The notes beneath the pieces are model-generated. The model saw only the letters and a list, made by a program, of their open reading frames with translations, searched no databases and was not told the origin of the DNA. From Closterium sp. NIES-65 (Eukaryota > Streptophyta > Zygnematophyceae > Desmidiales > Closteriaceae): a stretch of DNA of 64,000 nucleotides. A program made the translations under genes and the position numbers. This document shows positions 6,780 to 56,311 of the stretch, piece by piece. Where the stretch lies: the NCBI GenBank assembly GCA_948144175.1, contig CANXME010002579.1:62001-126000 (forward strand). Direction: 5' to 3'. How positions within the stretch are numbered: position 1 is the stretch's first letter; each line of letters opens with the position of its first letter.

Positions 6780-6820
6780 CAAAAGAGATGCAACAACGTG
6801 CTGTACTTGAGAGGCGTGCG
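6780..6820 (+). repeat. Echo of SmF exon 5 (possible alternative last exon)
   Basis: About 33 bases from 6786 repeat the start of SmF exon 5 with one mismatch, directly preceded by AG. If spliced from exon 4, this would keep the Sm2 motif (RCNNVLYLRGV) and then run about 14 new residues to a stop near 6853. The same sequence begins the second copy of the large duplication at 43177, where it has changed at several more positions. It could be a degenerate partial duplication or a used alternative exon. Sequence alone does not decide. Confidence 0.55.
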
Positions 6821-8375
6821 AATCATATACTTAATCAATCACTTGCCCTCCCCCTTTATGTGATTTACTTACCAATCTCCCTACCCCCACTCCATCTCCC
6901 TTAGCCCCCGCCCCGCTCCCCCGCTTCCCTCCCACCACTGTCTGGTTCTCCAAGTCTTTATTTCTTAGTAACCCTTTCATTTCAGCTTCACCCATTCCCC
7001 CCACCACTCGTTGTTCCCCTTCCTCCACTCCCTGTCTTCCAACAACCCTTCTACCGGATCACCTCATTCTTTCACCCCTTTTCAAAGTCCGAATTTCATG
7101 CGCTTGGCTCCATTTTCTAAGATGCTCGTTCTTTCTGTTGGTCCTTTTGCCCTGGTCCATGTTTGTCAGCTCTGTATGGCACTCTGCGGCTCCTCGTGTC
7201 CTTGTCTTCCAACCACACCCTCTCAACATTCAAATATGCTGAATTTGTTCTTGCAAGGTAGAACAGTATGGTAAGGCAACCAATCCAGGAAACATGGTGA
7301 CTAATATAGCTAGCTGCAACAACTTACGTGTTACCTGTAGTTGCTTGCTTGCAGTATCCATAGCAGGGACTCAGTGTGGCTAGTACTAGGTTGGAAAAAG
7401 GCGTCCTCCTTTGTGCTTGGGCTGGCCACTGAAATCCAGTGTTCATCCTCATTTTTGCCACCTCGACCTAAGATGATGATGCACTCCCTGGTTTGACCAG
7501 TTTACTATGTTTACTGTGGTTTGAATGTTTTTATCACTGGGCTGCAAATGAAGAAGGACTAGGTGCAAATGCAAAAGGACTAGGTTGCAATGCAATGTGT
7601 TTGTATTGATTCCAGGATTCTAGTATGAATTTCTTCACGCTTTCAATAAAGGCCTTCTGCTATCATGTAGAGTAAGGCAGATTTGTTCTTCAGGGCACCC
7701 GCCTTTAGCTAAGCATCTCGTAGTTCTAGAAGCTTCACTAGGCAAGCATATATTCCCATAATCCTATACGGAGGTCGTTTGGTGAGGATGAGAAACGAGG
7801 CGAAATGCATGCCACGTACTCACCTTTTCGGGCAGCTAAATGGTGGATAGTGAATTAATCTCAGACGTCGACTGGAGTTCATCGGATGGCTTTCGGCTTT
7901 CTCTCACAGTTAGGGGGCAGCAGTGATACCGCGTCAACAATCCGAGTCGCTAGCGACGCCGCCCTCCCGTGACGCCTTCAAGTAATGGTTCATTTTTCTG
8001 AACCAGCCCGTTTCAGTCAGTAGCTTTCGGACATAGCATCGAGTAAAATATGTAGGCATAACATCGACTTCGCGCTAGATATAATATGGTGGAAAGGCAT
8101 GGATTTATCGATCAGCAATTTTGAAGCAGGGGTACACTTTTCACATTTCATGGACCATTCTTCTCGACTGCCCATAAAATCGGCGCTGATATTCAGCCGA
8201 GACGCGTCCCTCGTCGACCAGACCAGACCAAAATGTCGGCGCTTCGCCTGAGGTTTGATGAGGGAGGAACATCTGGGGGCAAAAAAATCGAGAATAAATT
8301 GGGGCTGGAAATCCAGTCCATTCATTCACTTCCAAGCGTCGTTTCGAGGTTCAGTTCACTCCCCACCCCTTCACC
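6821..8375. other. Noncoding 5' flank of the Asp/His-rich gene, copy 1
   Basis: A pyrimidine-rich stretch at about 6840-7100 is followed by unremarkable sequence. 7546-7600 has a short direct repeat (GCAAATG..AAGGACTAGG). I recognise no gene. It is duplicated at 43218-44772. Confidence 0.5.
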
Positions 8376-8702
8376 ATGGCTTCTATGAAGCTCCTCGCTC
8401 TTCTGATCGCGATTTCCGCGATTTTGGTCGCCCTGCTTGCGCCCTCCGCTTATGCGGAGTCCAGCGCCGTCGCCACTTCAGGTGGGTACCGTCATTCCGC
8501 TGCTGTGACTTACGTCAAAGCGTTTGCTATTCATTTTTTGTTCGTTTGTTGTTTGCTCGTTTGTTTCTATTCCAAAATGTGCAAATTCTGACTCTCGCCA
8601 CGCGTTTTATTTCAGGATCCGCGTCAGCTCTCGCCACCAGGCGCTTCTTGGGCGACGACCACGACGACGACGATGATGATGACGATCACCACGACCACGA
8701 CG

Positions 8703-8736
<34 letters not shown>

Positions 8737-9178
8737 CGACCACCATCACCACCACGAGAAGAAGGAGAAGAAACCCAAGAAGAAGCTGACGTGCATTGAG
8801 AAGTACAAGATCAAATACGCCAAGTGCGAGGAGAAGGAGGAGAAGTGCGAGGCGAAGGCGGCGAATGCGGACGAGAAGGAGGTCTGCGAGGCGCAGTCGA
8901 CGGTGTGCGAGCGCAAGGCGTACAAGTCGTTCAAGAACTGCAAGTATGGCAAGTGGGGGTGCAAGGACTGGTGCCTGTACCGCCGCCGCCAGTGCCTCAA
9001 GTGGTACAAGGCGCCGATGTGCGAGGAGAAGTACGAGAAGTGCGCCGAGTCGTGCAAGCCCAAGCCGAAGAAGGAGGAGAAGCCCAAGAAGGAGAAGAAG
9101 AAGGAGCACCACCACGACCATGACCACGACGACGACGATCATCACGACCACGACGACGACGACCACCACGACGACTAG
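8376..9178 (+). CDS. Secreted Asp/His-rich, 12-cysteine protein, copy 1
   Basis: Two exons, 8376-8481 and 8616-9178, are joined by a GT-AG intron and give 669 nt, or 222 residues. Residues 1-27 form a clear signal peptide (MASMKLLALLIAISA..., cleavage near AYA/ES), so the protein enters the secretory pathway. Next comes a run of about 35 almost pure Asp and His residues. Then follows a Lys/Glu-rich core with 12 cysteines, including KWGCKDWC and WYKAPMCEEKYEKC, enough for six disulfides. A Lys-rich linker and a second Asp/His tail end the protein. I do not recognise the family. The acidic/histidine arms suggest binding of divalent metal or mineral ions outside the cell or in a vacuole, which is inference. 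The first ATG fits the signal peptide. An upstream in-frame extension exists only by reading through the intron frame. Confidence 0.82.
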
Positions 9179-9849
9179 ATGACGCTTTTTGAAACGATCC
9201 CCGTGATTGCACGCCTGACGGATTCCCGTGGTAGTAATTAACTCGCGGCGAGTTCCCGAGGGTGCGATGAGCCACGACGAACAACCTCACAAGAAGGACT
9301 TGCAGGAACCTCCTGGATTCACGGGAATTTCTTTTTGAAGACTCGAGGTTGAAGCTGTGAATGCGAGGGGGGCATAACCTCTTGTTATGCTTCTTTGCGC
9401 GTTCGGCTGCTGCGTTTGTTTTTCTTTCTTCCTCTTGGGTAGGTTGCACTGTTCGCCTGTGCGTCGCGTGGATACGTTGGCAGGCTCGAGTGGCCTGGGC
9501 TTTTCTATGGGAGAAGGGTAGAATTGGGCTTTTCCTAGGGAGGGGATAGTGAGGGTTGATTGGAGTCTGGGGGTGTTTATCATGAGGTCCAAGTAGGGAA
9601 ATAATGTTGTGTGTCCATTCAAAAGTCATCTTGCTGCTCTCCATCCCTCATTTTTTATCATCCTCATCATTCTCTTGAATCTCAACCTGCTAACAACTAC
9701 CGGTAACCTCCTTCCACTGGTTACCCCTTCTTTCCTTCCTGTCCTTCCCCAATAGGGTTGTATCAATGCCACATTACGAAAAACGCCTAAAATATCCACA
9801 TAGGTTATCTCCTTGCCTTATCCACATACGGTACAAGGTGTATCATGTA
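9179..9849. other. Intergenic, between convergent Asp/His gene and eIF2D remnant (copy 1)
   Basis: Presumed 3' UTRs and spacer. I see no gene, RNA or repeat. Near-identical to 45576-46246. Confidence 0.5.
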
Positions 9850-11066
9850 TCATCTCCTTGTCTTATCGAGTACCTCTATATGGGACTTGGGAATACCATG
9901 CACGTCTACTAGCAGCTGAGCCAGTTGATCCAACACGCCTCCCTGAATCAGCACCTCGTGCTGCCCCTTCTTGCCTGTATGGAAGCATGAACGAGTGCAT
10001 GGATGCGTGCATGGGTGCATGGATGGGTGATGCGTGCATGGGTGCATGGATGGGTGATGCGTGCATGGGTGCATGGACGAGTACATGGGTGCATGGACGA
10101 GTACATGGGAGCATGGACGAGTACATGGGTGCATGAATGGTGAGAGAAGAGCGGGAGAGCAGGGAAGCATACACCTGCTGCAGCCGAACCCACCCATCTG
10201 TTGCAATGCAACGAAAGCCCACCTTACACACCTGAACCGCCTGGCAGACCAACAAAGCCCTGCCACCTGTTACCCCTGCTAGCCACCACCGTATCTGCCA
10301 GCCCTCCCACCTGGAGCAGCAAATCCCACCTGGCACTTCAGCCACTAAGGTGCTCGAGGCGAACTTCCTCTGCAGCTCAGCAGCCAGCGGCTCAGCCTCC
10401 ACCAGATAAGCCTCCACCAGCCCCGACACCCCTGCTACCCCCATCTGCTGCAACACAACCCATCTGGCACTTCAGCAACCCATGTGCTTGAGGCAAACTT
10501 CCTCTGCAGCCAGCGGTTCAGCCTCAATTAGAGTAGCCCCTTGGTGCCTGCTACCCCTGTACCTGTTAGCCCTCTCACCAATAAGAACCCACCTGGCACT
10601 TCAGCAACTGACGTGATCGAGGCGAACTTCCTCTGCAGCTCAGCAGCCAGCGGCTCAGCCTCCACCAGATAAGCCTCCAGCCCTGCCACCCGCCTGCCCT
10701 CCTATCTACAGAGCCCAGCCCACCTGGTAGTTCCGCGACTGACGTACTCGAAGCAAACTTCCTCTGCAGCTCAGCAGCCAGAGGTTCAGCCTCCACCAGG
10801 TAAGCCTCGAGCCCCGACACGCGCGTCACCTTCTTGTTGCCCTGCCGCCGTTAATGTAGCCCCTTGGTGCTTGTTAGCCGTGTTAACCCTGTTACCACTT
10901 TTACCCCTGCACCTGTTGGCCCCAGTGACTAACATACCCTGTTAGCCCTCACGCACACCTGCTAAATCCAAAACCCACCTGGCACTTCAGCCATTGATGT
11001 GCTCGAAGCAAACTTCCTCTGCAGCTCAGCAGCGAGAGGCTCAGCCTCCACCAGATAAGCCTCCAG
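9850..11066 (-). pseudogene. eIF2D 3' end, copy cut off by a Copia insertion
   Basis: On the minus strand this holds the last eIF2D exon (9974-9850, ending EVLDKTRR then TGA), the last intron, the four tandem echoes of the end of exon 8 (about 10325-10439, 10463-10536, 10589-10680, 10719-10851), and the last about 90 bases of exon 8 itself (10977-11066). At 11067 a plus-strand Copia LTR begins, so the upstream nine tenths of the gene are not attached here. The exon 8 donor reads CCAG/GTGGGT in this copy, whereas the full-span copy reads CCAC/GCGGGT. Without its 5' exons this copy cannot make eIF2D. Confidence 0.82.
9990..10135 (+). repeat. 27-bp minisatellite in the eIF2D last intron, copy 1
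   Basis: Tandem units built on GTGCATGGATGGGTGATGCG and GTGCATGGACGAGTACATGG. Copy 1 has two of the 'GATGGGTGATGCGTG' units, and the corresponding tract in copy 2 (46413-46559) has three. The repeats lie upstream of the last eIF2D exon on the minus strand. Confidence 0.85.
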
Positions 11067-14579: not shown

Positions 14580-15125
14580 TCAAAGCTGGGTGGTGTGAGA
14601 TACACCCTGCTTGACAAGATAGTCCTTGAGAGCACGGCGTGCGTTGCCCATATCAGCTTCTGCAACCCAACTGTCCTCAGTGGGGTCGTATCCCTTCCAG
14701 CGTATCAGGAACTCGAGGGTCTTGCCGCCGCGGCGCCGATGAGAGAGAACGCGCTCAATCTCGTACTCGGGTTCATCCTGCACAACAACAGGTGGAGGTG
14801 GCGGTAGCTGCCGTCCCTGGAACTGTTGGTTGGGGTCCTTGTAGGGCTTCAGTAGCTGGACATGGAAAGCATTGTGAAGCTTCCATGTATCTGGTAAGTG
14901 CAAGCGAAATGTAACTGGTGTCACCTGTGCCTCAACGAGAAAAGGACCACAGAAGCGAGGCCGGAGTTTGGATGGTAGGTGAGACAGGTTCAAGTTGTGA
15001 GTGTCAAGAAGCACCCGATCTCCGACTGCTACTGAGTGATCTCGTCGCTGACAATTGGCATACTGCTTCTGGGAGTTCTGCATCGTGGTGAGACGTTGTT
15101 GAGTCTGCTCCCATAGCTGCTGCAT
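14580..15125 (-). CDS. Gypsy-D integrase C-terminus with chromodomain
   Basis: The frame includes the GPY-like region (FCGPFLVEAQVTPVTFRLHL) and a chromodomain with the expected core (ERVLSHRRRGGKTLEFLIRW and then KGYDPTEDSW). In chromoviruses this domain is thought to bias insertion toward marked heterochromatin. TRIM-1 lies just upstream on the minus strand. Confidence 0.8.
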   Translation of the reverse strand: MQQLWEQTQQRLTTMQNSQKQYANCQRRDHSVAVGDRVLLDTHNLNLSHLPSKLRPRFCGPFLVEAQVTPVTFRLHLPDTWKLHNAFHVQLLKPYKDPNQQFQGRQLPPPPPVVVQDEPEYEIERVLSHRRRGGKTLEFLIRWKGYDPTEDSWVAEADMGNARRALKDYLVKQGVSHTTQL

Positions 15126-43176: not shown

Positions 43177-43219
43177 CAAAAGAGATGCAACATCATGCTG
43201 TACTCGAGAGGCGTGCGAA

Positions 43220-44772
43220 TCATATACTTAATCAATCACTTGCCCTCCCCCTTTATGTGATTTACTTACCAATCTCCCTACCCCCACTCCATCTCCCTTA
43301 GCCCCCGCCCCGCTCCCCCGCTTCCCTCCCACCACTGTCTGGTTCTCCAAGTCTTTATTTCTTAGTAACCCTTTCATTTCAGCTTCACCCATTCCCCCCA
43401 CCACTCGTTGTTCCCCTTCCTCCACTCCCTGTCTTCCAACAACCCTTCTACCGGATCACCTCATTCTTTCACCCCTTTTCAAAGTCCAAATTTCATGCGC
43501 TTGGCTCCATTTTCTAAGATGCTCGTTCTTTCTGTTGGTCCTTTTGCCCTGGTCCATGTTTGTCAGCTCTGTATGGCACTCTGCGGCTCCTCGTGTCCTT
43601 GTCTTCCAACCACACCCTCTCAACATTCAAATATGCTGAATTTGTTCTTGCAAGGTAGAACAGTATGGTAAGGCAACCAATCCAGGAAACATGGTGACTA
43701 ATATAGCTAGCTGCAACAACTTACGTGTTACCTGTAGTTGCTTGCTTGCAGTATCCATAGCAGGGACACAGTGTGGCTAGTACTAGGTTGGAAAAAGGCG
43801 TCCTCCTTTGTGCTTGGGCTGGCCACTGAAATCCATTGTTCATCCTCATTTTTGCCACCTCGACCTAAGATGATGATGCACTCCCTGGTTTGACCAGTTT
43901 ACTATGTTTACTGTGGTTTGAATGTTTTTATCACTGGGCTGCAAATGAAGAAGGACTAGGTGCAAATGCAAAAGGACTAGGTTGCAATGCAATGTGTTTG
44001 TATTGATTCCAGGATTCTAGTATGAATTTCTTCACGCTTTCAATAAAGGCCTTCTGCTATCATGTAGAGTAAGGCAGATTTGTTCTTCAGGGCACCTGCC
44101 CTTAGCTAAGCATCTCGTAGTTCTAGAAGCTTCACTAGGCAAGCATATATTCCCATAATCCTATACGGAGGTCGTTTGGTGAGGATGAGAAACGAGGCGA
44201 AATGCATGCCACGTACTCACCTTTTCGGGCAGCTAAATGGTGGATAGTGAATTAATCTCAGACGTCGACTGGAGTTCATCGGATGGCTTTCGGCTTTCTC
44301 TCACAGTTAGGGGGCAGCAGTGATACCGCGTCAACAATCCGAGTCGCTAGCGACGCCGCCCTCCCGTGACGCCTTCAAGTAATGGTTCATTTTTCTGAAC
44401 CAGCCCGTTTCAGTCAGTAGCTTTCGGACATAGCATCGAGTAAAATATGTAGGCATAACATCGACTTCGCGCTAGATATAATATGGTGGAAAGGCATGGA
44501 TTTATCGATCAGCAATTTTGAAGCAGGGGTACACTTTTCACATTTCATGGACCATTCTTCTCGACTGCCCATAAAATCGGCGCTGATATTCAGCCGAGAC
44601 GCGTCCCTCGTCGACCAGACCAGACCAAAATGTCGGCGCTTCGCCTGAGGTTTGATGAGGGAGGAACATCTGGGGGCAAAAAAATCGAGAATAAATTGGG
44701 GCTGGAAATCCAGTCCATTCATTCACTTCCAAGCGTCGTTTCGAGGTTCAGTTCACTCCCCACCCCTTCACC
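43220..44772. other. Noncoding 5' flank of the Asp/His-rich gene, copy 2
   Basis: Near-identical to 6821-8375. A pyrimidine-rich stretch and spacer; no gene recognised. Confidence 0.5.
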
Positions 44773-45099
44773 ATGGCTTCTATGAAGCTCCTCGCTCTTC
44801 TGATCGCGATTTCCGCGATTTTGGTCGCCCTGCTTGCGCCCTCCGCTTATGCGGAGTCCAGCGCCGTCGCCACTTCAGGTGGGTACCGTCATTCCGCTGC
44901 TGTGACTTACGTCAAAGCGTTTGCTATTCATTTTTTGTTCGTTTGTTGTTTGCTCGTTTGTTTCTATTCCAAAATGTGCAAATTCTGACTCTCGCCACGC
45001 GTTTTATTTCAGGATCCGCGTCAGCTCTCACCACAAGGCGCTTCTTGGGCGACGACCACGACGACGACGATGATGATGACGATCACCACGACCACGACG

Positions 45100-45133
<34 letters not shown>

Positions 45134-45575
45134 CGACCACCATCACCACCACGAGAAGAAGGAGAAGAAACCCAAGAAGAAGCTGACGTGCATTGAGAAG
45201 TACAAGATCAAATACGCCAAGTGCGAGGAGAAGGAGGAGAAGTGCGAGGCGAAGGCGGCGAATGCGGACGAGAAGGAGGTCTGCGAGGCGCAGTCGACGG
45301 TGTGCGAGCGCAAGGCGTACAAGTCGTTCAAGAACTGCAAGTATGGCAAGTGGGGGTGCAAGGACTGGTGCCTGTACCGCCGCCGCCAGTGCCTCAAGTG
45401 GTACAAGGCGCCGATGTGCGAGGAGAAGTACGAGAAGTGCGCCGAGTCGTGCAAGCCCAAGCCGAAGAAGGAGGAGAAGCCCAAGAAGGAGAAGAAGAAG
45501 GAGCACCACCACGACCATGACCACGACGACGACGATCATCACGACCACGACGACGACGACCACCACGACGACTAG
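44773..45575 (+). CDS. Secreted Asp/His-rich, 12-cysteine protein, copy 2
   Basis: Exons 44773-44878 and 45013-45575 encode the same 222-residue protein as 8376-9178: signal peptide, Asp/His arm, 12-Cys Lys/Glu core, Asp/His tail. By eye the coding sequence differs from copy 1 at two bases. One is silent, and the other changes an Ala to Thr just after the intron (SALATRR becomes SALTTRR). The near-absence of change, the intact intron and the intact long Asp/His tracts mean that the two copies are very recent, allelic, or an assembly duplicate. The function is unknown, and metal or mineral binding is inferred from composition. Confidence 0.82.
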
Positions 45576-46246
45576 ATGACGCTTTTTGAAACGATCCCCG
45601 TGATTGCACGCCTGACGGATTCCCGTGGTAGTAATTAACTCGCGGCGAGTTCCCGAGGGTGCGATGAGCCACGACGAACAACCTCACAAGAAGGACTTGC
45701 AGGAACCTCCTGGATTCACGGGAATTTCTTTTTGAAGACTCGAGGTTGAAGCTGTGAATGCGAGGGGGGCATAACCTCTTGTTATGCTTCTTTGCGCGTT
45801 CGGCTGCTGCGTTTGTTTTTCTTTCTTCCTCTTGGGTAGGTTGCACTGTTCGCCTGTGCGTCGCGTGGATACGTTGGCAGGCTCGAGTGGCCTGGGCTTT
45901 TCTATGGGAGAAGGGTAGAATTGGGCTTTTCCTAGGGAGGGGATAGTGAGGGTTGATTGGAGTCTGGGGGTGTTTATCATGAGGTCCAAGTAGGGAAATA
46001 ATGTTGTGTGTCCATTCAAAAGTCATCTTGCTGCTCTCCATCCCTCATTTTTTATCATCCTCATCATTCTCTTGAATCTCAACCTGCTAACAACTACCGG
46101 TAACCTCCTTCCACTGGTTACCCCTTCTTTCCTTCCTGTCCTTCCCCAATAGGGTTGTATCAATGCCACATTACGAAAAACGCCTAAAATATCCACATAG
46201 GTTATCTCCTTGCCTTATCCACATACGGTACAAGGTGTATCATGTA
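45576..46246. other. Spacer between convergent genes, copy 2
   Basis: Near-identical to 9179-9849. Nothing recognised. Confidence 0.5.
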
Positions 46247-49200
46247 TCATCTCCTTGTCTTATCGAGTACCTCTATATGGGACTTGGGAATACCATGCAC
46301 GTCTACTAGCAGCCGAGCCAGTTGATCCAACACGCCTCCCTGAATCAGCACCTCGTGCTGCCCCTTCTTGCCTGTATGGAAGCATGAACGAGTGCATGGA
46401 TGCGTGCATGGGTGCATGGATGGGTGATGCGTGCATGGGTGCATGGATGGGTGATGCGTGCATGGGTGCATGGATGGGTGATGCGTGCATGGGTGCATGG
46501 ACGAGTACATGGGTGCATGGACGAGTACATGGGAGCATGGACGAGTACATGGGTGCATGAATGGTGAGAGAAGAGCGGGAGAGCAGGGAAGCATACACCT
46601 GCTGCAGCCGAACCCACCCATCTGTTGCAATGCAACGAAAGCCCACCTTACACACCTGAACCGCCTGGCAGACCAACAAAGCCCTGCCACCTGTTACCCC
46701 TGCTAGCCACCACCGTATCTGCCAGCCCTCCCACCTGGAGCAGCAAATCCCACCTGGCACTTCAGCCACTAAGGTGCTCGAGGCGAACTTCCTCTGCAGC
46801 TCAGCAGCCAGCGGCTCAGCCTCCATCAGATAAGCCTCCACCAGCCCCGACACCCCTGCTACCCCCATCTGCTGCAACACAACCCATCTGGCACTTCAGC
46901 AACCCATGTGCTTGAGGCAAACTTCCTCTGCAGCCAGCGGTTCAGCCTCAATTAGAGTAGCCCCTTGGTGCCTGCTACCCCTGTACCTGTTAGCCCTCTC
47001 ACCAATAAGAACCCACCTGGCACTTCAGCAACTGACGTGATCGAGGCGAACTTCCTCTGCAGCTCAGCAGCCAGCGGCTCAGCCTCCACCAGATAAGCCT
47101 CCAGCCCTGCCACCCGCCTGCCCTCCTATCTACAGAGCCCAGCCCACCTGGTAGTTCCGCGACTGACGTGCTCGAAGCAAACTTCCTCTGCAGCTCAGCA
47201 GCCAGAGGTTCAGCCTCCACCAGGTAAGCCTCGAGCCCCGACACGCGCGTCACCTTCTTGTTGCCCTGCCGCCGTTAATGTAGCCCCTTGGTGCCTGTTA
47301 GCCGTGTTAACCCTGTTACCACTTTTACCCCTGCACCTGTTGGCCCCAGTGACTAACATACCCTGTTAGCCCTCACGCACACCTGCTAAACCCAAAACCC
47401 GCGTGGCACTTCAGCCATTGATGTGCTCGAAGCAAACTTCCTCTGCAGCTGAGCAGCGAGAGGCTCAGCCTCCACCAGATAAGCCTCCAGCCTCGACACG
47501 CGCGTCACCTTCTTGTTGCCCTGCCGCCTCTCCACCAGAATCTGCACCGGCACCAACCCTCCCTTGCGCACGATGCTTTTCCCTATAGAAGCTCTCTCCA
47601 CCCTGTGATGCGCCTGGATGCGCTTCACTATAGTCGGACCCAGTTCCCGCTTGTGGCATTCCGTGGGGTACGTGGCGCCCTTTTTTATCGCGCCTTTGTA
47701 CAGTGCGTCGCAGAGCGGTGCGTCGAGGATGACTATAGAGGGGTCGGAAGGCTTTGTGAGAGCAGCCTCGCGGGCAGCCGAGGGGGAGTAGTAGGCGTGT
47801 GGGTCGAGCCCTCCGGCTTCGAAAATGGCTGACACGTGGTGGGTAGGTTTCAATACCTCCTCTACTGTCAGCCCTCCACTGCTGCTGCTGCCGCTACCGC
47901 TGCTGCTGGTGGTTGTGGTGGTGGTGGCGGTGGTGGTCGGTGCTCCAGGTGCGGCTGGGGATGCGTCAAGGGTTGCAGCAGCAGGGGTCTGGGCGGGCTT
48001 GTTTGTCTTGTCTGGCGTGAAGGCAATGAGGGTCGGGTGGCGGTAGTTGACAGCGGAGAGGATGAACTCCTTTCGGTGCTTGTCCTCCTTGCCGCTTATC
48101 TGGGAGGGCAACGAACAAGGGGGTGGGGGTGGGGGATGGCAGTGTATGAGTGCAATAGAAGCGATGATGCCACAGGTTGTTGACAGCAGAGAGGATGAAC
48201 TCCTTTCGGTGGTTGCCCTCCTTGCCGCTTATCTGAGGGGGGGGGGGGGTAATGGGAAGAGGTATATAGATTTGTGCAGTGGGAAGGGCGGAAAGGAAGG
48301 GGTGGGTACATGCTATTGGCGGATAAAGACAGAGAGGATGAACTCCTTTCGGTGCTTGTCCTCCTTGCCGCATATCTGTGAGGGGGGAGGGAAGGGAGAA
48401 GATAGATGAGTGCATCGAAAGTAGTGATGGGTGCAAGGGAAGGGAAGGGTCGGGTGGCGGTAGCCTGTACAATGGGAAGGGTCGGGTGGCGGTAGCCTGT
48501 AGGAAATGGCAGGCAGAGAGGATGAACTCCTTTCGGTGCTTGTCCTCCTTGCCGCATATCTGGGAGGGGGGGAGGGGAGGGTAGATGGGTCCAATGGGGA
48601 GGGTTGGGTGGTACAGGTGGGAACATGCCATGGGTGGTTGATAGCAATGTTGATGGTACTTCTGAGAATTCTCAAAAGTACCTTCAATGGGGAGGGTTGG
48701 GTGGTACAGGTGGGAACATGCCATGGGTGGTTGATAGCAGAGGAGATGAACTCCTTCAGGTGCTTATCCTACTTGACGCATACATCAGGGGGCAGGCAGG
48801 CAAGAAGCTTTCCCCTGAATGTCACTCACTCTCACAATCCCTCACTCTCACTCACTCACTCACTCACTCACCAGCCCCTCAACCGCCTTGGCATGCAGCC
48901 ACTCATACTCACACGCTCTCTCACACTCACACTCCCTCCCTCACGCACTCACCAGCCCATCAACGGCCTTGGCATGCAGCCACTTGCTCAGCTTCTTGTG
49001 AGACGACCTCTTGATGTCCACTGTTGTGCCGGGCGGCCGACATGGCAGCACATGATTGGACCTGCCAGCCATGCACGTGGTGGTGGGAGAGCATCAGGGT
49101 ATCACATGATTCACGTGTCATGCGCCTTGTGTCAGACACATGGCAGCACGTGAATGGACCTGCCGTGCAATGCGTGGTGGTGGGAAAGCATCAGGGTATG

Positions 49201-49656
49201 ACATGATTCGCATGCCATGGGCCTCGTGTTGGACCTGCCGTGCAGGGGGGGTGGAAGGGAGGGAGGGGCAAGCAAGGCAATCTTTCACGGAGAACCAACA
49301 TGGGATAGCTAGCACACTCTGGTAACCAACAACCCAAGCTGCCGAGGAATGTGAGATATCCCCTTAAAGCCTCACAACATGAGACAGCCTTTCAGGCGCC
49401 TCTCTTCAGGGGGAGGTTACCAGAGTGTGCTAGCTCCCAGTGGCAGGTGGGAGAAGTTGAAAGAGACGGAGAGGGCCTGCAGCAGACGCTGGTGCGCTTG
49501 CTAACCGCGAGTGAAGACGACGCAGGAGACAGCGATCCAACAGCTCATCCATCTGTTCTGCTGCCATTGCCACCTGAGAGGAAGGTTACCAGAGGGAGGT
49601 TACCAGAGGAAGGTTACCAGAGGGAGGTTACCAGAGGGAGGTTACCAGAGGGAGGT

Positions 49657-49749
<93 letters not shown>

Positions 49750-50037
49750 CAAAGGGAGCGTACCAGAGGGTGCTAGCTCCCAGCGGCAGGTGGGAGGGCT
49801 TGACAGAGACGGAGAGCCTGCAGCAGACAGCGATCCAATAGCTCATCCATCTGAGCCGGTGTCAATGCCACCGCTGCTGCTGTTTCTGCTGGTGCTGGTG
49901 CGGTTTCCTCTGCAGCAGCTGCTGCTTTTTGTTCCCCCTCGCTGCCCCCAACAGCGCCAACAGAATTATTATTACCAGCAGCAGCAGTGTCACGTATTCC
50001 CAGATGCTGCAGAGATTCTGACAGGTGCTCTGATGAA

Positions 50038-50069
<32 letters not shown>

Positions 50070-53000
50070 TGCTGCTGCCCCCTCCTCCATCACCGCACCT
50101 GCCTCTCCCTCCTCATCGCCCCTCCCCTCACCTCGCCCGGCCTCACCCTCCCCCCCTCCAGTCCCAGTAGCACCCAAATCGTCATCAGGTGAATCATCAG
50201 GCGAATCTTCAGGTGCTGCTCCCTCTGACGGAACAGGCTCGGCATCAGGGTCGGGCACAACCAGGTCTGGCAGGAAGCCCTTGTTCGGCACATAAGAGCC
50301 CTCTGCTGTCTCCCTGTGGGCGCGGTGGGGAAGTGGGGGCGTCAAGTGGTGGTGCTCCATTTGGAGGAGAAGAGCAGGCGTGGCATCAGAATCGGGGAGG
50401 CGTCTCCCTGTGGGCGTGGGTTGGTGCGGAAGAGAAAGGGATTGCACAAGCGTTGAGCATGAGAGCAGGAGAACAAGCAGCGCACAGACAGGCACGACCA
50501 GGTCCGGCAAGAAGCCCTTGTTTGGGACGTACGAGCCCTCTGCCATCTCATACTGTGAGTGGGGATTGGGGTGGATTTCATACTGAGTGCAGTAGTATTG
50601 GGACACATGTGGGGTTGCTGACCAAAGTAAGTCATGGCAATAGTGGGTGATTCGAAGGAGCTTCCCTCTCATGCCTGCTCTCACGGCCTCTCATATGAGC
50701 AGATACAAAGAGAGAGTGGGTGGGCATGCTGTGCTGACCAGAGCGAGTCGCGGTAGTAGTGGGTGACTCGGAGGAGCTTCCCTCTCATGCCTGCTCTCAT
50801 GACCTCTCGTGTGAGCGGACAGCGAAAGAGTGGGTGGGAATTGAATTGACACCACAAGGAGGATGTGAGTGGACAGAGAGAGTAGAGTAAGGTGGAATGC
50901 GGTGCTGACCAGAGCGAGTCGCGGTAGTAGTGGGTGATTCGGAGGAGCTTCCCTCTCATGCCGGCTCTCACAGCCTCCGCACTGCCCACCATCGTTATGC
51001 CCACCTGCGTGCATGGGCATGGCGAATGGTGGAGTGGAAACACATGCACATGCGGACGGATGGGATGGGGTGAGATAAGACATATGAGATGAGAGAATGC
51101 ATGCCGGCTCTCACGGCCTCTGCTGCACTGCCCACCATAGTTATGCCCACCTGGTGTGCATGGGACATGGTACACATGCACATGCATACATGGGATATGG
51201 TGCACATGCACATGCATATATGGGATATGGTGCACATGCACATGCATATATGGGATATGGTGCACATGCACATGCATATATGGGATATGGTGCACATGCA
51301 CATGCATATATGGGATATGGTGCACATGCACATGCATATATGGGATATGGTGCACATGCACATGCATATATGGGACATGGTGCACATGCACATGCATATA
51401 TGGGACATGGTGCACATGCACATGCATATATGGGACATGGTGCACATGCAAATGCATATATGGGATACGGTACATAGACATGAGCACAAGGGCGAACACC
51501 TGTTCGGTTCGCCTCGAACGTGTTTTTTTTGCTTAAATTGTTCGCCGAACAGTGTTCGATGTTCGCCCGAACACGTTCGTGTTCGGGCCGCTGCTGCAAT
51601 TTGCCCCGCGACGAACACGAACGTGTTCGAGGTTCGCCCGAACACACCTTCACAGGCGAACGGCGAACACGTGTTTTTGCTTAAAGTGTTCGCCGAACCG
51701 AACTTCGGTTCGGCAAACGGATGTGTTCGTCTAGGGGTGAACACGAACATGTTCGTGTTCGCCCCTTGCTCATCCCTAACGGTACACATGCACATGCATA
51801 TATGGGATATGGTGCACATGCACATGCATATATGGGATATGGTGCACATGCACATGCATATGTGGGATATGGTGCACATGCATAAATGGGATATGGTACA
51901 CATGCACATGCATATATGGGATATGGTGCACATGCACATGCATATATGGGATATGGTGCACATGCACATGCATTTATGGGATCTGTGGTGCACATGCACA
52001 TGCATATATGGGATATGTGGTGCACATGCACATGCATATATGGGATATGGTGCACATGCACATGCATATATGGGATATGGTGCACATGCACATGCATATA
52101 TGGGATATGGTGCACATGCACATGCATATATGGGATATGGTGCACATGCACATGCATATATGGGATATGGTGCACATGCACATGCATATATGGGATATGG
52201 TGCACATGCATATATGGGATATGGTGCACATGCACATGCATATATGGGATATGATGCACATGCACATGCATATATGGGACATGGTGCACATGCACATGCA
52301 TATATGGGATATGGTGCACATGCACATGCATATATGGGATATGGTGCACATGCACATGCATATATGGGATATGGTGCACATGCACATGCATATATGGGAT
52401 ATGGTGCACATGCACATGCATATATGGGATATGGTGCACATGCACATGCATATATGGGATATGGTGCACATGCACATGCATATATGGTACATGGTGCACA
52501 TGCACATGCATATATGGGATATGGTGCACATGCACATGCATATATGGGATATGGTGCACATGCACATGCACATATGGGATATGGTGCACATGCACATGCA
52601 TATATGGGATATGGTGCACATGCACATGCATATATGGGATATGATGCACATGCACATGCATATATGGGATATGGTGCACATGCACATGCATATATGGGAT
52701 ATGGTGCACATGCACATGCATATATGGGATATGGTGCACATGCACATGCATATATGGGATATGGTGCACATGCACATGCATATATGGGATATGGTGCACA
52801 TGCACATGCAGATATGGGATATGGTGCACATGCACATGCATATATGGGATATGGTGCACATGCACATGCACATATGGGATATGGTGCACATGCACATGCA
52901 AATATGGGATATGGTGCACATGCACATGCATATATGGGATATGGTGCACATGCACATGCATATATGGGATATGGTGCACATGCACATGCATATATGGGAT

Positions 53001-56000
53001 ATGGTGCACATGCACATGCATATATGGGACATGGTGCACATGCACATGCATATATGGGACATGGTGCACATGCACATGCATATATAGGATATGGTACACA
53101 TGCACATGCATATATGGGATATGGTGCACATGCACATGCATATATGGGATATGGTGCACATGCACATGCATATGTGGGATATGGAGCACATGCATAAATG
53201 GGATATGGTACACATGCACATGCATATATGGGATATGGTGCACATGCACATGCATATATGGGATATGGTGCACATGCACATGCATTTATGGGATATGTGG
53301 TGCACATGCACATGCATATATGGGATATGTGGTGCACATGCACATGCATATATGGGATATGGTGCACATGCACATGCATATATGGGATATGGTGCACATG
53401 CACATGCATATATGGGATATGGTGCACATGCACATGCATATATGGGATATGGTGCACATGCACATGCATATATGGGATATGGTGCACATGCACATGCATA
53501 TATGGGACATGGTGCACATGCACATGCATATATGGGATATGGTGCACATGCACATGCATATATGGGATATGGTGCACATGCACATGCATATATGGGATAT
53601 GGTGCACATGCACATGCATATATGGGATATGGTGCACATGCACATGCATATGTGGGATATGGTGCACATGCACATGCACATGTGGGACATGGTGCACATG
53701 CACATGCATATATGGGATATGGTGCACATGCACATGCATATATGGGATATGGTGCACATGCACATGCATATATGGGATATGGTGCACATGCACATGCATG
53801 TATGGGATATGGTGCACATGTACATGCATATATGGGATATGGTGCACATGCACATGCATATATGGGATATGGTGCACATGCACATGCATATATGGGATAT
53901 GGTGCACATGCACCTGCACATGAGGGACATGGTGCACATGCACATGCACATGCACATATGGGACATGGTGCACATGCACATATGGACAAGATCGCACAAG
54001 CCTATGTAGCAGCATGTAGCAGGGCAATTGAGCATCACGCACTTACCGCTATGGGGCAGGAGTTTCCTGGAACCTTCACGGACCACACCTCCCCTGGTCG
54101 GAACTCTGGCAGGCCTTCCGCAGGCCACTGGCGGGCAGAGGAATGCAGAGGGGTGCAGAGGGGTGCAGGAGAAGACATTTTTCAGGAGAACCGAACCGAA
54201 AGGGGGAACTTTTGAATAGAATCCAAGTAAACTCACCTGCACACGTGGCGCCTTGATATCAGCCCCTGACAGCAAGTAGCGGAGACCTTTCAAGCAGTAG
54301 AAGCTACACTACACCCTCGCCCTGTAACCTACTACACTATTCCTTCAACCCTCCCTTCACTCTCACCTGCATGCCTGGTGCCATGAGGTCAGCCCCTGAC
54401 AGCACGTAGCGGGACAACGGCAAAAACAGAACGCTGCACCCTAGAATCCCTCCCACCTTCGCAATACCCTAAACCCCCACCTCACTCTGACTCACCTAAA
54501 CGCCTGACGCCATAAGGTCAGCCCCTGACAGCACGTAGCGAGATACCTCCCCGCCCTTGAGCAGGAAGGACGGCAGCAGGTCAGGAACAAGCCAGAGCGC
54601 AAACACTGGGATGGGATGGGGTATGAGGGTTGGGTTGACAGGGGTTCAGGGTTTCGGGGTTTAAGGCAACTGTTGCGTCAACTTAAAAGTCATCACCTCC
54701 CTCCCTGCCCTTGAGCAGGAAGGACGGCAGCAGGTCAGGCACAAGCCACATCGCCACAATTGGGGATGAAGTACGGGTTGCAGGGTTTCGGGTTCAAATG
54801 TCGAGCTTAAGGTCACAAGTTTGCAATTTCAGCTATCTCCTAGTAGATTCGATTCAAATATCACCTCCCTGCTTTTAAGCAGGAACGACGGCACCAGGTC
54901 AGGCACAAGCCACATCGCAACAATTGAGGATGGGGTTTCAGGACTGGGTTTGAGAGGCAGGAATTGAGGGTATAAGGTTGAAGGTCCGGAATTGAGGGAT
55001 TCAGGGTTTAAGATGAGGAGGGTGAACAGCAGGTGGCTGTTGAGCTGCGGTGAAGGTGATTGAAATGATAGCATGGGACGGGAATGGAGGGCGCACAGGA
55101 AGCACGTGCTATGGACGGCAGGAACAACAAATAAGGAGATTTGGAGGAAAGGGCTAAGATCAAACCACACGATTGAAGTCATGAAGAGCGGAGGAGGGCG
55201 AGAAAGAGGAGGGGGCGGGGAAGGGAGGGAGGGAGGGAAGAGCGGAAAGGTTTGTATGAGTATCTGTGTGGTTACATCGGTGTGGTTACACGGCCATGTG
55301 GTTACCAGTGGGGTAGATCTCGGTGTGGTTACATGACCGTGTGGTTACCATTGGGGTAGATCTTGGTGCCCCTGCCGTCGCAGTCGAAGAGCATGGGCAG
55401 CCCGCTCTCGAGTCCATACACCAGCACGCGATCAAGGGAGGGGGGGATGGGTATCTGTGTGGTTACATCTCCATGTGGTTACCAGTGGGGTATATTTCGG
55501 TGCCCCTGCCGTCGCAGTCGAAGAGCATGGGCAGCCCGTTCTCGAGTCCGTACACCAGCACGCGATTCACCAGCCTCGTCACCGACACGTCAGCCTGGAC
55601 CGGGCAAACAAACCGAGGGGAGTTTCGTGAAAGATACTCGGAATTCCGAAAAGACTACACCACTAAAGAGAGCGGGGGATTCGGAGAGCGCAAGCACCAG
55701 AGCGGATTAAGGACGAGGTGGTCACAATGAACGGCGAGGATTCAACACGCGGGTTATCAGGTGGCGATTGCGTGGGCCTACGTGGAGAGTGAACGGCGGG
55801 GGTACTAATACGAGGGTTAAGCGGGAAGCTACTAAGGAGCACCTTGGGCGGCAGGATCGCGTAGGCCAATGTGTAATCGGCGGAGGGTGATACGGAGGTT
55901 ACGACAAGAAGCTACTAAGGAGCACCTTGGGCGGCAGGATCGCTACTAAGCAGCACCTTGGGTGGCAGGATCGCTACTAGTAAGCAGCACCTTGGGTGGC

Positions 56001-56311
56001 AGGATCGCTACTAAGGAGCACCTTGGGCGGCAGGATCGCTACTAAGCAGCACCTTTGGTGGCAGGATCGCTACTAAGGAGCGGCACCTTGGGCGGCAGGA
56101 TCGCTAAGGAGCACCTTGGGCGGCAGGATCGCTACTAAGGAGCACCTTGGGCGGCAGGATCGCTACTAAGGAGCACCTTGGGCGGCAGGATCGCGTCCAG
56201 CTGCTCCTCAGTGGCGCCTGGAAACTTGTCTCGGATGTTTCGCCGAAGCTTCTTTCTGTCCGCTCCTGACAGACGCTGCTGTCCGCGAACGTCGCTAGGC
56301 TTTTTGAACAT
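46247..56311 (-). CDS. EIF2D: Translation initiation factor eIF2D (ligatin), multi-exon
   Basis: eIF2D places initiator tRNA on the 40S P site without GTP and helps recycle ribosomes in the cytosol. Exons I can place on the minus strand: 56311-56177 (MFKKPSDVRGQQRL, ending ILPPK), 55594-55483 (VLVYGLENGLPMLFDCD), 54605-54496 (ALWLVPDLLPSFLL), 54127-54047 (EGLPEFRPGEVWSV), 51004-50910 (MRGKLLRITHYYRDSLW), 50313 to about 49760 (GSYVPNKGFLPD, low-complexity, QMDELLDRCLL), 49020-48953 (DIKRSSHKKLSKWLHAK), 48099-47403 (SWIB-like and most of SUI1) and 46371-46247. They follow human eIF2D order: N-terminal/PUA, winged helix, SWIB, SUI1 (NKKVTRVSRLEAYL, HEVLIQGG). Phases agree for most junctions. Doubtful points: exon 3 reads TAG just before its GTGAGT donor (54498-54496), exon 6 changes frame near its end, and the exon 8 donor is GC. 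It may be weakened, or may use the tandem exon copies. Confidence 0.85.
46413..46559 (+). repeat. 27-bp minisatellite in the eIF2D last intron, copy 2
   Basis: The same tract as 9990-10135 but with one extra 27-bp unit, the only length difference noticed between the two blocks. Confidence 0.85.
46749..47275 (-). repeat. Tandem echoes of the end of eIF2D exon 8 (SUI1 segment)
   Basis: Four further copies of the exon 8 end lie in the last intron: about 47275-47143, 47104-47013, 46960-46887 (degenerate) and 46863-46749. Three keep an open frame through LVEAEPLAAELQRKFASST and end at a GT donor (CCAG/GTGGG). The first also repeats the upstream NKKVTRVSGLEAY part. Upstream AG acceptors are present (for example GGCGGCAG/GGCAAC). 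They could serve as alternative exons or be inert. Confidence 0.8.
48190..48792 (-). repeat. Tandem echoes of the start of eIF2D exon 8
   Basis: Four copies of the intron 7 acceptor plus the first about 45 bases of exon 8 (GKEDKHRKEFILSA) lie upstream of the authentic acceptor at 48099: about 48236-48190, 48381-48330, 48567-48519 and 48792-48741. Three keep a pyrimidine-rich AG acceptor, and the last is more diverged. Confidence 0.82.
48870..48905 (-). repeat. Echo of the end of eIF2D exon 7
   Basis: It repeats WLHAKAV(D/E)GL and the GTGAGTG donor of exon 7 (49020-48953), about 55 bp downstream of the authentic donor. Confidence 0.75.
49308..49660 (-). repeat. Echoes of the exon 6 end and donor-motif array
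   Basis: 49410-49500 is a second, in-frame copy of the HLPLGASTLW segment with its CTCTG/GTAACC donor. 49575-49660 is about six tandem units of GGTTACCAGAGGGA, the complement of that donor edge. A small copy in the opposite orientation lies at 49308-49326. Confidence 0.7.
49657..49745 (+). repeat. GA dinucleotide microsatellite
   Basis: An almost perfect (GA)n run of about 88 bases between the donor-motif array and the end of eIF2D exon 6. Confidence 0.95.
50400..50560 (-). repeat. Echoes of the start of eIF2D exon 6
   Basis: 50560-50500 repeats AEGSYVPNKGFLPDLVVP with an upstream AG. Around 50420-50395 is another copy of the acceptor edge (CCCACAGGGAGAC). The authentic acceptor, whose phase fits exon 5, is at 50313. 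Confidence 0.75.
50610..51155 (-). repeat. Echoes around eIF2D exon 5
   Basis: The full exon is 51004-50910. A copy of its first half (GITMVGSA) lies upstream at about 51155-51085. Copies of its second half with donor (RAGMRGKLLRVTHYYRDSLW) lie downstream at about 50815-50735 and 50690-50610. Confidence 0.82.
51156..53985 (+). repeat. 30-bp minisatellite in an eIF2D intron
   Basis: About 80-90 units built on GCACATGCACATGCATATAT followed by GGGATATGGT, lying in the intron between eIF2D exons 4 and 5. Because 30 is divisible by 3, several frames on both strands stay open for hundreds of codons. A higher-order copy is visible: the variant run at about 51781-52020 recurs at about 53094-53335. 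It is interrupted at 51481-51780. Confidence 0.95.
51481..51780. mobile_element. Foldback/MITE-like insertion in the minisatellite
   Basis: About 300 bp unlike the flanking repeats, rich in GTTCG/CGAAC. The ends resemble inverted repeats: GAGCACAAGGGCGAACAC on the left and the complement of GAGCAAGGGGCGAACAC on the right. Many internal inverted repeats (AACACGTTCGTGTT-like) are present. It encodes nothing evident. A non-autonomous DNA element is the likeliest reading; the target duplication is obscured by the repeats. Confidence 0.6.
54235..54925 (-). repeat. Echoes around eIF2D exon 3
   Basis: The full exon is 54605-54496. First-half copies (MWLVPDL(L/V)PSFLLK) lie upstream at about 54763-54700 and 54925-54860. 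Second-half copies with donor (RYVLSGADLMAPGMQ/GTGAGA and a variant) lie downstream at about 54440-54376 and 54290-54235. Confidence 0.82.
55297..55440 (-). repeat. Echoes of the end of eIF2D exon 2
   Basis: About 55434-55342 repeats VLVYGLESGLPMLFDCDGRG and its GTAACC donor. 55322-55297 is a shorter copy of the donor edge (EIYPT/GTAACC). Confidence 0.82.
55829..56176 (-). repeat. About 31-bp array of the eIF2D exon 1 donor edge
   Basis: About nine units of CTACTAAGGAGCACCTTGGG plus CGGCAGGATCG in the first intron. Each reads ILPPK followed by the GTGCTC donor on the minus strand, so each copies the last codons of exon 1 and its 5' splice site. Confidence 0.88.

Follow-up and report, generated by a model that had tools for sequence, protein, structure and literature searches.

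The introns of a gene for eIF2D on the minus strand of Closterium sp. NIES-65 (positions 46247..56311 of the window, by which we mean the whole 64,000-nucleotide stretch of contig CANXME010002579.1 that was analyzed) contain partial copies of the ends of most of its exons. We refer to any partial copy of an exon end in an adjacent intron as an echo. On balance, we lean toward the view that the echoes are by-products of local duplication in Closterium that is blind to exon–intron boundaries and whose products are sorted by selection in genes with short original introns. The pattern recurs in other eIF2D copies of this genome and in unrelated chaperonin genes.

The gene was recognized from its homologs, and its nine exons were placed by tblastn with exon peptides and by inspection of splice sites. 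On the minus strand, exons 1 through 5 occupy 56311-56177, 55594-55483, 54605-54496, 54127-54047, and 51004-50910, and exons 6 through 9 occupy 50313-49764, 49061-48953, 48099-47404, and 46372-46247. This copy, W, is pseudogene-like: exon 3 terminates in an in-frame TAG, exon 6 has a frameshift close to its end, and exon 8, besides having lost its donor, lacks 24 nt that are present in a close sister copy, A. The genome also contains the near-identical copies B and C (~79% to W), D, E, the near-identical F and G, and a fragment, H. In copies B and C, exons 1 to 8 are open and exon 9 is matched over its full length, the exon-9 junction in the gene model being one base off; F, a compact gene, has open exons 1 to 8 and a full exon-9 match.

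A first-pass annotation had reported extra partial copies of exons 1, 2, 3, 5, 6, 7, and 8 and had proposed aligning the gene to itself; this self-comparison (45.5-57 kb) displays the echoes, as does comparison of the gene with exon models. Echoes accompany 12 of the 16 internal exon–intron boundaries of W (the ends of exons 1, 2, 3, 5, 6, 7, and 8 and the starts of exons 3, 5, 6, 7, and 8); exons 4 and 9 yielded none in the search of the gene against exon models, from which pairs inside the 30-bp satellite of W were dropped. Copies of exon starts lie upstream and copies of exon ends downstream, as originally described. The annotation had singled out exons 3 and 5 as echoed on both sides; they are, but so are exons 6, 7, and 8.

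All echoes of W given here are in minus orientation. The end of exon 1, with its donor, recurs in an array with a 31-bp unit at 55828..56194 (about nine copies in the Tandem Repeats Finder [TRF] array at 55911-56194 and one at 55828-55862), and that of exon 2, with its donor, at 55320..55432 (113 bp, 91%). Two acceptor-side echoes of the exon 3 start lie at 54700..54977 and two echoes of its end at 54231..54414, and the corresponding features of exon 5 are one acceptor-side echo at 51100..51150 and two end echoes at 50616..50799. The start of exon 6 is echoed at 50491..50549, beginning at the exon itself and not including the acceptor AG, and its end, in two aligned pieces, at 49411..49574; exon 7 has a start echo at 49138..49229 and an end-plus-donor echo at 48823..48903. 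Exon 8 is echoed on both sides, with four start echoes within 48175..48782 (48175-48241, 48332-48384, 48478-48568, and 48726-48782) and four end echoes within 46744..47273 (47143-47273, 47010-47117, 46878-46934, and 46744-46853).

Most echoes include the splice site, in agreement with the initial description: among 54 echoes in W and C, 13 stop short of the junction. GT is present in 20 of the 25 junction-reaching donor-side echoes (23 of 25 if W exon 8 is granted its one-base shift in register), and AG in 12 of the 16 acceptor-side ones. No echo in either copy spans a whole exon. Copy C has echoes at 11 of 16 boundaries, and echo positions match between the divergent paralogs W and C; the intact C being echo-rich, echoes are no consequence of gene decay. 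Copy F has a single old acceptor-side echo, of exon 3, at 70%. In one search, the share of intron bases derived from exons was 1387/8051 in W, 1464/5798 in C, and 0/3122 in F, and intron lengths are 368-3042 bp in W, 506-1220 bp in C, and 234-698 bp in the echo-poor F. Relative to W and C, intron 6 also carries insertions of ~5.5 kb in A and ~3.1 kb in B.

Echoes are not confined to eIF2D. An exon search of the genome for chaperonin (PF00118) genes gave 93 matches, including partial extra matches beside exons, and we compared 5 of the 11 listed chaperonin (CCT) loci, plus the partner copies of three of them (divergence within the three pairs, 0.1-2.6%). On self-comparison, acceptor-side copies lie upstream and donor-side copies downstream, clearly in four of the five genes and weakly in the fifth (locus L034: 0/4 starts and 1/4 ends). 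Across the five loci, 13 of 26 exon starts have an upstream copy and 14 of 26 exon ends a downstream copy. Echoes of both eIF2D and CCT genes are local, head-to-tail, and on the same strand (only same-strand copies were searched for), and within an intron the echoes of the previous exon's end come first and those of the next exon's start last. The period to the nearest copy is 120-180 bp in 33 of 61 CCT cases, and 60-180 bp in 77 of 113 cases when CCT, W, and C are taken together. At L031:4862-6289, a 124-bp array of ~99% identical units, each joining intron sequence to the first 57 nt of a CCT exon core, is a very young exon-start echo array.

We next asked how copies are distributed, using 45-bp tiles and a search radius of 700 bp. 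The tiling left out exons below 90 bp in length (exon 4), any intron tile lying no more than 60 bp from an exon, and, for W, C, and F, the outer ends of the first and last exons (1 and 9); all CCT core ends were kept, and the intron tiles of W include satellite. Pooled counts exclude B, which is nearly identical to C, and F (copies for 0 of its 14 ends, 0 of its 20 middles, and 5 of its 44 intron tiles). Nearby copies accompany 50/80 exon ends, 361/724 intron tiles, and 10/57 exon middles, with 49 copies of exon ends on the expected side and 1 on the wrong side; when W is removed as well, the counts are 39/66, 254/571, and 8/38. Within eIF2D, exon middles are depleted (2/37). A control with unrelated regions matched 1 of 939 tiles, which excludes chance. 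The CCT genes being alike and introns being nearly as copy-rich as exon ends, splice-junction-specific duplication of eIF2D was not retained as the main cause. Among the causes originally offered, a generally duplication-prone genome is supported by the presence of the same echoes in CCT genes and eIF2D paralogs and by the similar copy content of introns and exon ends (361/724 versus 50/80). The main pattern can be accounted for without a process tied to splice junctions, although the density of copies in genes versus their flanks and 14 of 49 echoes that lack flank homology (both described below) leave room for an element of it.

Under the explanation we favor, local duplications would be frequent and blind to exon–intron boundaries. 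Those falling within an exon would destroy the protein and be lost; one that crosses a donor would survive only with its spare copy downstream, and one that crosses an acceptor only with its spare copy upstream, such that the orientation of the copies would follow from selection against duplicates on the wrong side. Introns would grow from decayed pieces of their own exon edges, a pattern that is directly visible, whereas the tandem geometry and the short ancestral introns are what we infer. One source of duplications would be the palindromic insertions flanked by direct duplications that occur genome-wide and are documented at some sites. Echoes retain homology to the exon, which allows the two to recombine.

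Boundary-blind duplications of 70-180 bp were simulated together with a purifying filter (three replicates per setting, with small indels only and no segment deletion). Starting from 100-bp introns, copies arise for 0.57-0.67 of exon ends, 0.02-0.06 of exon middles, and 0.82-0.98 of introns; starting from 220-bp and 400-bp introns, the values for exon ends are 0.33-0.52 and 0.19-0.24, too few, so the fit depends on short ancestral introns. The initial argument that random duplication is unlikely to touch nearly every boundary of a gene accordingly fails if introns began at ~100 bp (57-67% echoed ends); longer starts give fewer echoed ends. Both F and two NIES-53 gene models (P0019 and P0003) hint at short ancestral introns; the two models, as predictions only, read through a would-be intron 2 of ~72 and 96 nt.

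Several observations weigh against this explanation. The simulation overpredicts both intron copies (0.82-0.98 from a 100-bp start, versus 0.50 observed) and wrong-side copies (0.05-0.19 for exon ends and 0.14 for exon starts, versus 1/80 observed). Loss of members of intron–intron pairs, together with a shorter reach of echoes into exons, could account for the overprediction, and we suspect that real echoes do extend a shorter distance into exons than those in the simulation. Copies are slightly more frequent for exon ends than for introns (Fisher p 0.03, and again 0.03 without W), exon middles are not depleted in CCT genes (8/20, versus 186/466 intron tiles), and CCT exons are hidden Markov model (HMM) cores, such that some CCT "intron" tiles may be exon. 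Local copies are found for only 5 of 44 intron tiles in F, and for 153 of 918 tiles (0.17) in flanking, mostly nontarget DNA, versus 0.50 in genes. Past the splice site, 14 of 49 testable echoes have no similarity above the 95% shuffle level, while their exonic parts are 81-98% identical, and several further echoes have flank similarity only out of register; simple tandem duplication does not predict these flank-less echoes. In one and the same duplicate, the divergence of the exonic part can be far lower: 2/61 versus 12/46 for the intronic part in the W exon 5 duplicate, and 2/76 versus 11/50 in the C exon 7 duplicate. The missing flank homology could reflect rapid turnover of introns, filler added during duplication, or a diverged homolog as the source of the copy. 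Raw echo–exon differences are distributed 29/22/65 over codon positions, a third-position excess before outgroup control, in a count that had W exons 7 and 8 out of phase owing to the differing lengths of W exons 6 and 8. Finally, a palindromic spacer is present in only 6 to 7 of 48 spaced direct repeats, leaving most echoes without a demonstrated seed.

Some of these observations would be expected if copying were tied to the junctions themselves, that is, if pieces ending at a splice site (an exon end with the first few bases of the intron, or the converse) were placed in the neighboring intron with an unrelated spacer between copy and source. Such copying would fit the 14 of 49 echoes that lose similarity at the splice site while their exonic parts remain 81-98% identical, the unrelated outer flanks of the outermost echoes in several arrays, the slight excess of exon ends over introns, and the scarcity of wrong-side copies relative to the simulated level. 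It fits poorly with the long in-register intron homology of several echoes (C exons 3, 6, and 8) and with the local copies found for half of all intron tiles. Moreover, none of the 11 gaps of at least 10 bp between the three CCT pairs touches an exon core, although 1 of 6 gaps between W and A (exon 8) and 1 of 4 between B and C (exon 7) do touch exon. We know of no splice-junction-tied copying mechanism, and we rate this account as unlikely.

Sequence evidence that exon and echo exchange comes from exon 7 of B and C, copies that differ by 0.2% in collinear non-echo introns. Here, B equals C minus 159 bp, with the junction inside the exon/echo homology. Exon 7 of B is identical to exon 7 of C, while the donor and following intron of B are identical to those after the first echo of C and unlike those after exon 7 of C. 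Exon and echo share an identical last part, so the exact crossover point cannot be placed within this tract. Given the exonic (2/76) and intronic (11/50) differences between the two copies in C, the duplication is too old to postdate the B/C split, and its earlier origin makes deletion in B by exon–echo recombination the simplest reading. Exon 7 of B thus appears to have come to use the donor of the echo, the direction of change being inferred.

Exchange of this kind also bears on a further alternative, in which the echo and its outer intron would have come from another gene copy, a diverged homolog or paralog, through template switching or unequal exchange. Differences in the echoes resemble synonymous changes and often coincide with other paralogs, flanks are often nonhomologous, and exon and echo have recombined between B and C; in addition, an excerpt of PMC10407611 describes the Closterium peracerosum-strigosum-littorale (C. 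psl.) complex as rich in duplicated genes and NIES-4550 as of hybrid origin. However, no donor copy matching an echo was identified, and each CCT locus has one partner copy among the matches listed, the three partners differing by 0.1-2.6%. Echo/exon trees are poorly resolved, the sequences being too short (exons of D, E, and H are labeled "echo" in them for want of exon models). We consider this origin rather unlikely.

The first-pass annotation had also suggested that echoes are retained as decoy or alternative sites. If selection kept them as such exons, one might expect the GT or AG retained in 32 of 41 junction-reaching echoes, the raw enrichment of differences at third codon positions, and the public gene models that include echoes. 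Judged from their sequences, five models appear to splice echoes in as exons: P0040 and P0048 from NIES-65, P0044 from NIES-64, and P0042 and P0046 from Naga37s-1. Gene models are predictions rather than RNA evidence, however, and the inclusion of echoes is possibly an annotation error. As an outgroup control, we restricted the comparison to sites where the local exon matches all other available paralog exons. Distinct changes on the echo at codon positions 1/2/3 then number 9/7/8 (acceptor side) and 7/5/7 (donor side) in C and 6/6/5 and 7/8/7, respectively, in W, with no significant difference between positions in the echoes of either copy (p 0.33-0.78). Coding echoes were rejected on this basis, the raw third-position bias vanishing once all other paralog exons must agree, and at sites conserved in all of those exons the echoes look neutral. 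At the remaining third positions of C donor-side echoes, 28 of 38 differing bases match the exon of another paralog, which means that the echo either preserves an earlier state of the exon or at some time took part in exon exchange. A comparison of echoes with each other (without W exon 6, and with W exon 8 out of phase) also fits neutral echoes copied at different times, and F, open through exon 8, is almost echo-free. Retention as decoy or alternative sites thus finds no positive support, and a functional role is improbable.

Although the genome contains many near-identical copies, an assembly artifact is very improbable indeed: echo-derived peptides occur in gene models of other assemblies (P0044 of NIES-64; P0042 and P0046 of Naga37s-1), which makes assembly error unlikely, echoes hold matching positions in the divergent W and C, and copies differ by changes of various ages.

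A candidate source of the duplications is a family of 22-40-bp palindromes in which the arms (ACTTTTGAG...CTCAAAAGT) are fixed and the centre varies but is usually itself palindromic. The pattern ACTTTTGAG-NNNN-CTCAAAAGT has 6107 exact matches in the genome, versus 0 for the reversed-pattern control, and the form centred on TCGA has no match in prokaryote or viral collections. Comparisons between copies capture palindromes as insertions. At 48592..48739 of the window, a palindromic micro-insertion of ~38 bp lies between identical copies of a 55-bp segment and is absent from sister A; the resulting 93-bp insertion of W relative to A consists of the 55-bp duplicate plus ~38 bp containing the palindrome TACTTTTGAGAATTCTCAGAAGTA. 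Locus L035 differs from L038 by a 23-bp palindrome and a 30-bp duplication, with a clean empty site, and L037, compared with L033, carries an extra 44 bp, inserted with a 21-bp duplication. Within copy C, a palindrome (one mismatch) lies between exon 8 and the first donor-side echo, and a 93-bp flanking duplication at 81% identity is an older case.

Flanking direct repeats were scored at 20 of the first 29 palindrome places listed, the other nine, in arrays or near another listed place, being skipped. Abutting direct repeats were present at 17 of the 20 palindromes versus 6 of 100 random sites (Fisher 5e-13), with a score cut of 24 that was set after the scores of the sampled sites were known and with repeats of up to 110 bp considered in the random pool and up to 150 bp at palindromes. 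Under earlier nulls, with 95th percentiles of 192 and 104, 0/46 and 1/20 passed; these high values were put down to satellites in the pool. The flanking duplications are variable, from 13 to ~65 bp in the 20 sampled sites. In their inverted-repeat ends (the palindrome itself) and their insertion at empty sites (A and L038), the palindromes resemble terminal inverted repeat (TIR) DNA transposons and miniature inverted-repeat transposable elements (MITEs), but their duplications vary in length rather than being short and fixed. We suggest, tentatively, that recently active palindromic micro-insertions, where they land close to exon ends, might copy the exon edge together with its splice site and that recombination might then build arrays, enlarge introns, and sometimes swap in an echo splice site.

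Palindromes were also seen at L035:2345, at L033:2151 and 3268, and at positions 14728 and 15083 of the I locus (L025/L026 joined), as well as in tandem arrays with a unit of 57-68 bp. Locus H (L023/L024) holds 86 palindrome copies, its first 7 kb (gene orientation) being satellite with spacings that are multiples of 68 bp. In the window, intron 4 of W is mostly a 30-bp satellite (51160-53981), of which sister A has ~1.8 kb less and which is interrupted at ~51490-51780 by a block with GAACACGTTCG-like palindromes; intron 6 contains a perfect (GA)42 microsatellite (49660-49744). The window contains two copies (99%, 36.4 kb apart) of a 4.3-kb segment that includes the 3′ end of eIF2D, at 6780-11066 and 43177-47490, and a nest of retroelement-like repeats lies between them.

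No description of exon-edge echo arrays turned up in searches of an open-licence library. Such arrays, which build introns and can exchange with the exon, are a form of local tandem duplication, real and striking, and not shown to be tied to splice junctions. Small tandem duplications reportedly arise from break repair (Schiml 2016; Vaughn and Bennetzen 2014 are said to describe this).

According to an excerpt of PMC8355091, no other kind of short (<100 bp) insertion is as common in the human genome as small tandem duplications, and the human and plant work cited there ties them to nearby single-strand breaks; like the echoes, they are short and local. Closterium introns, however, are largely built of such duplications, some with filler or palindromic spacers. 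An intron gained by tandem duplication opens with sequence copied from the start of the next exon and closes with sequence copied from the end of the previous one. The Closterium order, from the echo of the left exon's end to the echo of the right exon's start, is the reverse. In the available portion of PMC4974935, intron gain by tandem genomic duplication likewise alters gene structure through splice-site duplication, but there a new intron is made inside an exon, whereas in Closterium existing introns grow. Tandem exon duplication, with its mutually exclusive exons, also places extra exon-like copies in introns, as part of PMC6071210 describes. Closterium echoes are instead partial; those of W and C do not amount to whole exons with both splice sites and are without codon-position constraint under paralog outgroups. 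Minisatellite or variable number tandem repeat (VNTR) birth followed by unequal exchange gives tandem arrays whose unit number changes. This resembles the Closterium arrays of 31-, 62-, and 124-bp and similar units, and the difference in units between B and C, except that one member of a Closterium array is a functional exon end; recombination can consequently put an echo splice site behind a coding exon.

Among green algae, Volvox carteri has palindromic selfish repeats in intergenic and intronic organelle DNA, with some nuclear copies judged to be inert organelle transfers (an excerpt of PMC2670323). The likeness lies in the spread of short palindromes through intergenic and intronic DNA; in contrast, the Closterium palindromes are numerous in the assembly, combine fixed arms with a variable centre, and have long flanking direct duplications, while the term "direct repeat" has 0 occurrences in the available portion of the Volvox palindrome text (PMC2670323). 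Gene duplication published for the same organism group is rampant and concerns whole-gene copy number; the portion of that account available does not describe sub-exon copies in introns.

The idea that the splice junctions of one gene attract duplication is weakened by these results. Introns of several genes are seen to be built from copies of their own exon edges, which makes it possible to test where intron length, cryptic splice sites, and gene-annotation errors come from. In the palindromic insertions and their long duplications there is a concrete source of mutation, one open to tracing between strains. If their proposed role is true, a tiny mobile sequence would drive both intron growth and the turnover of exon edges in Closterium.

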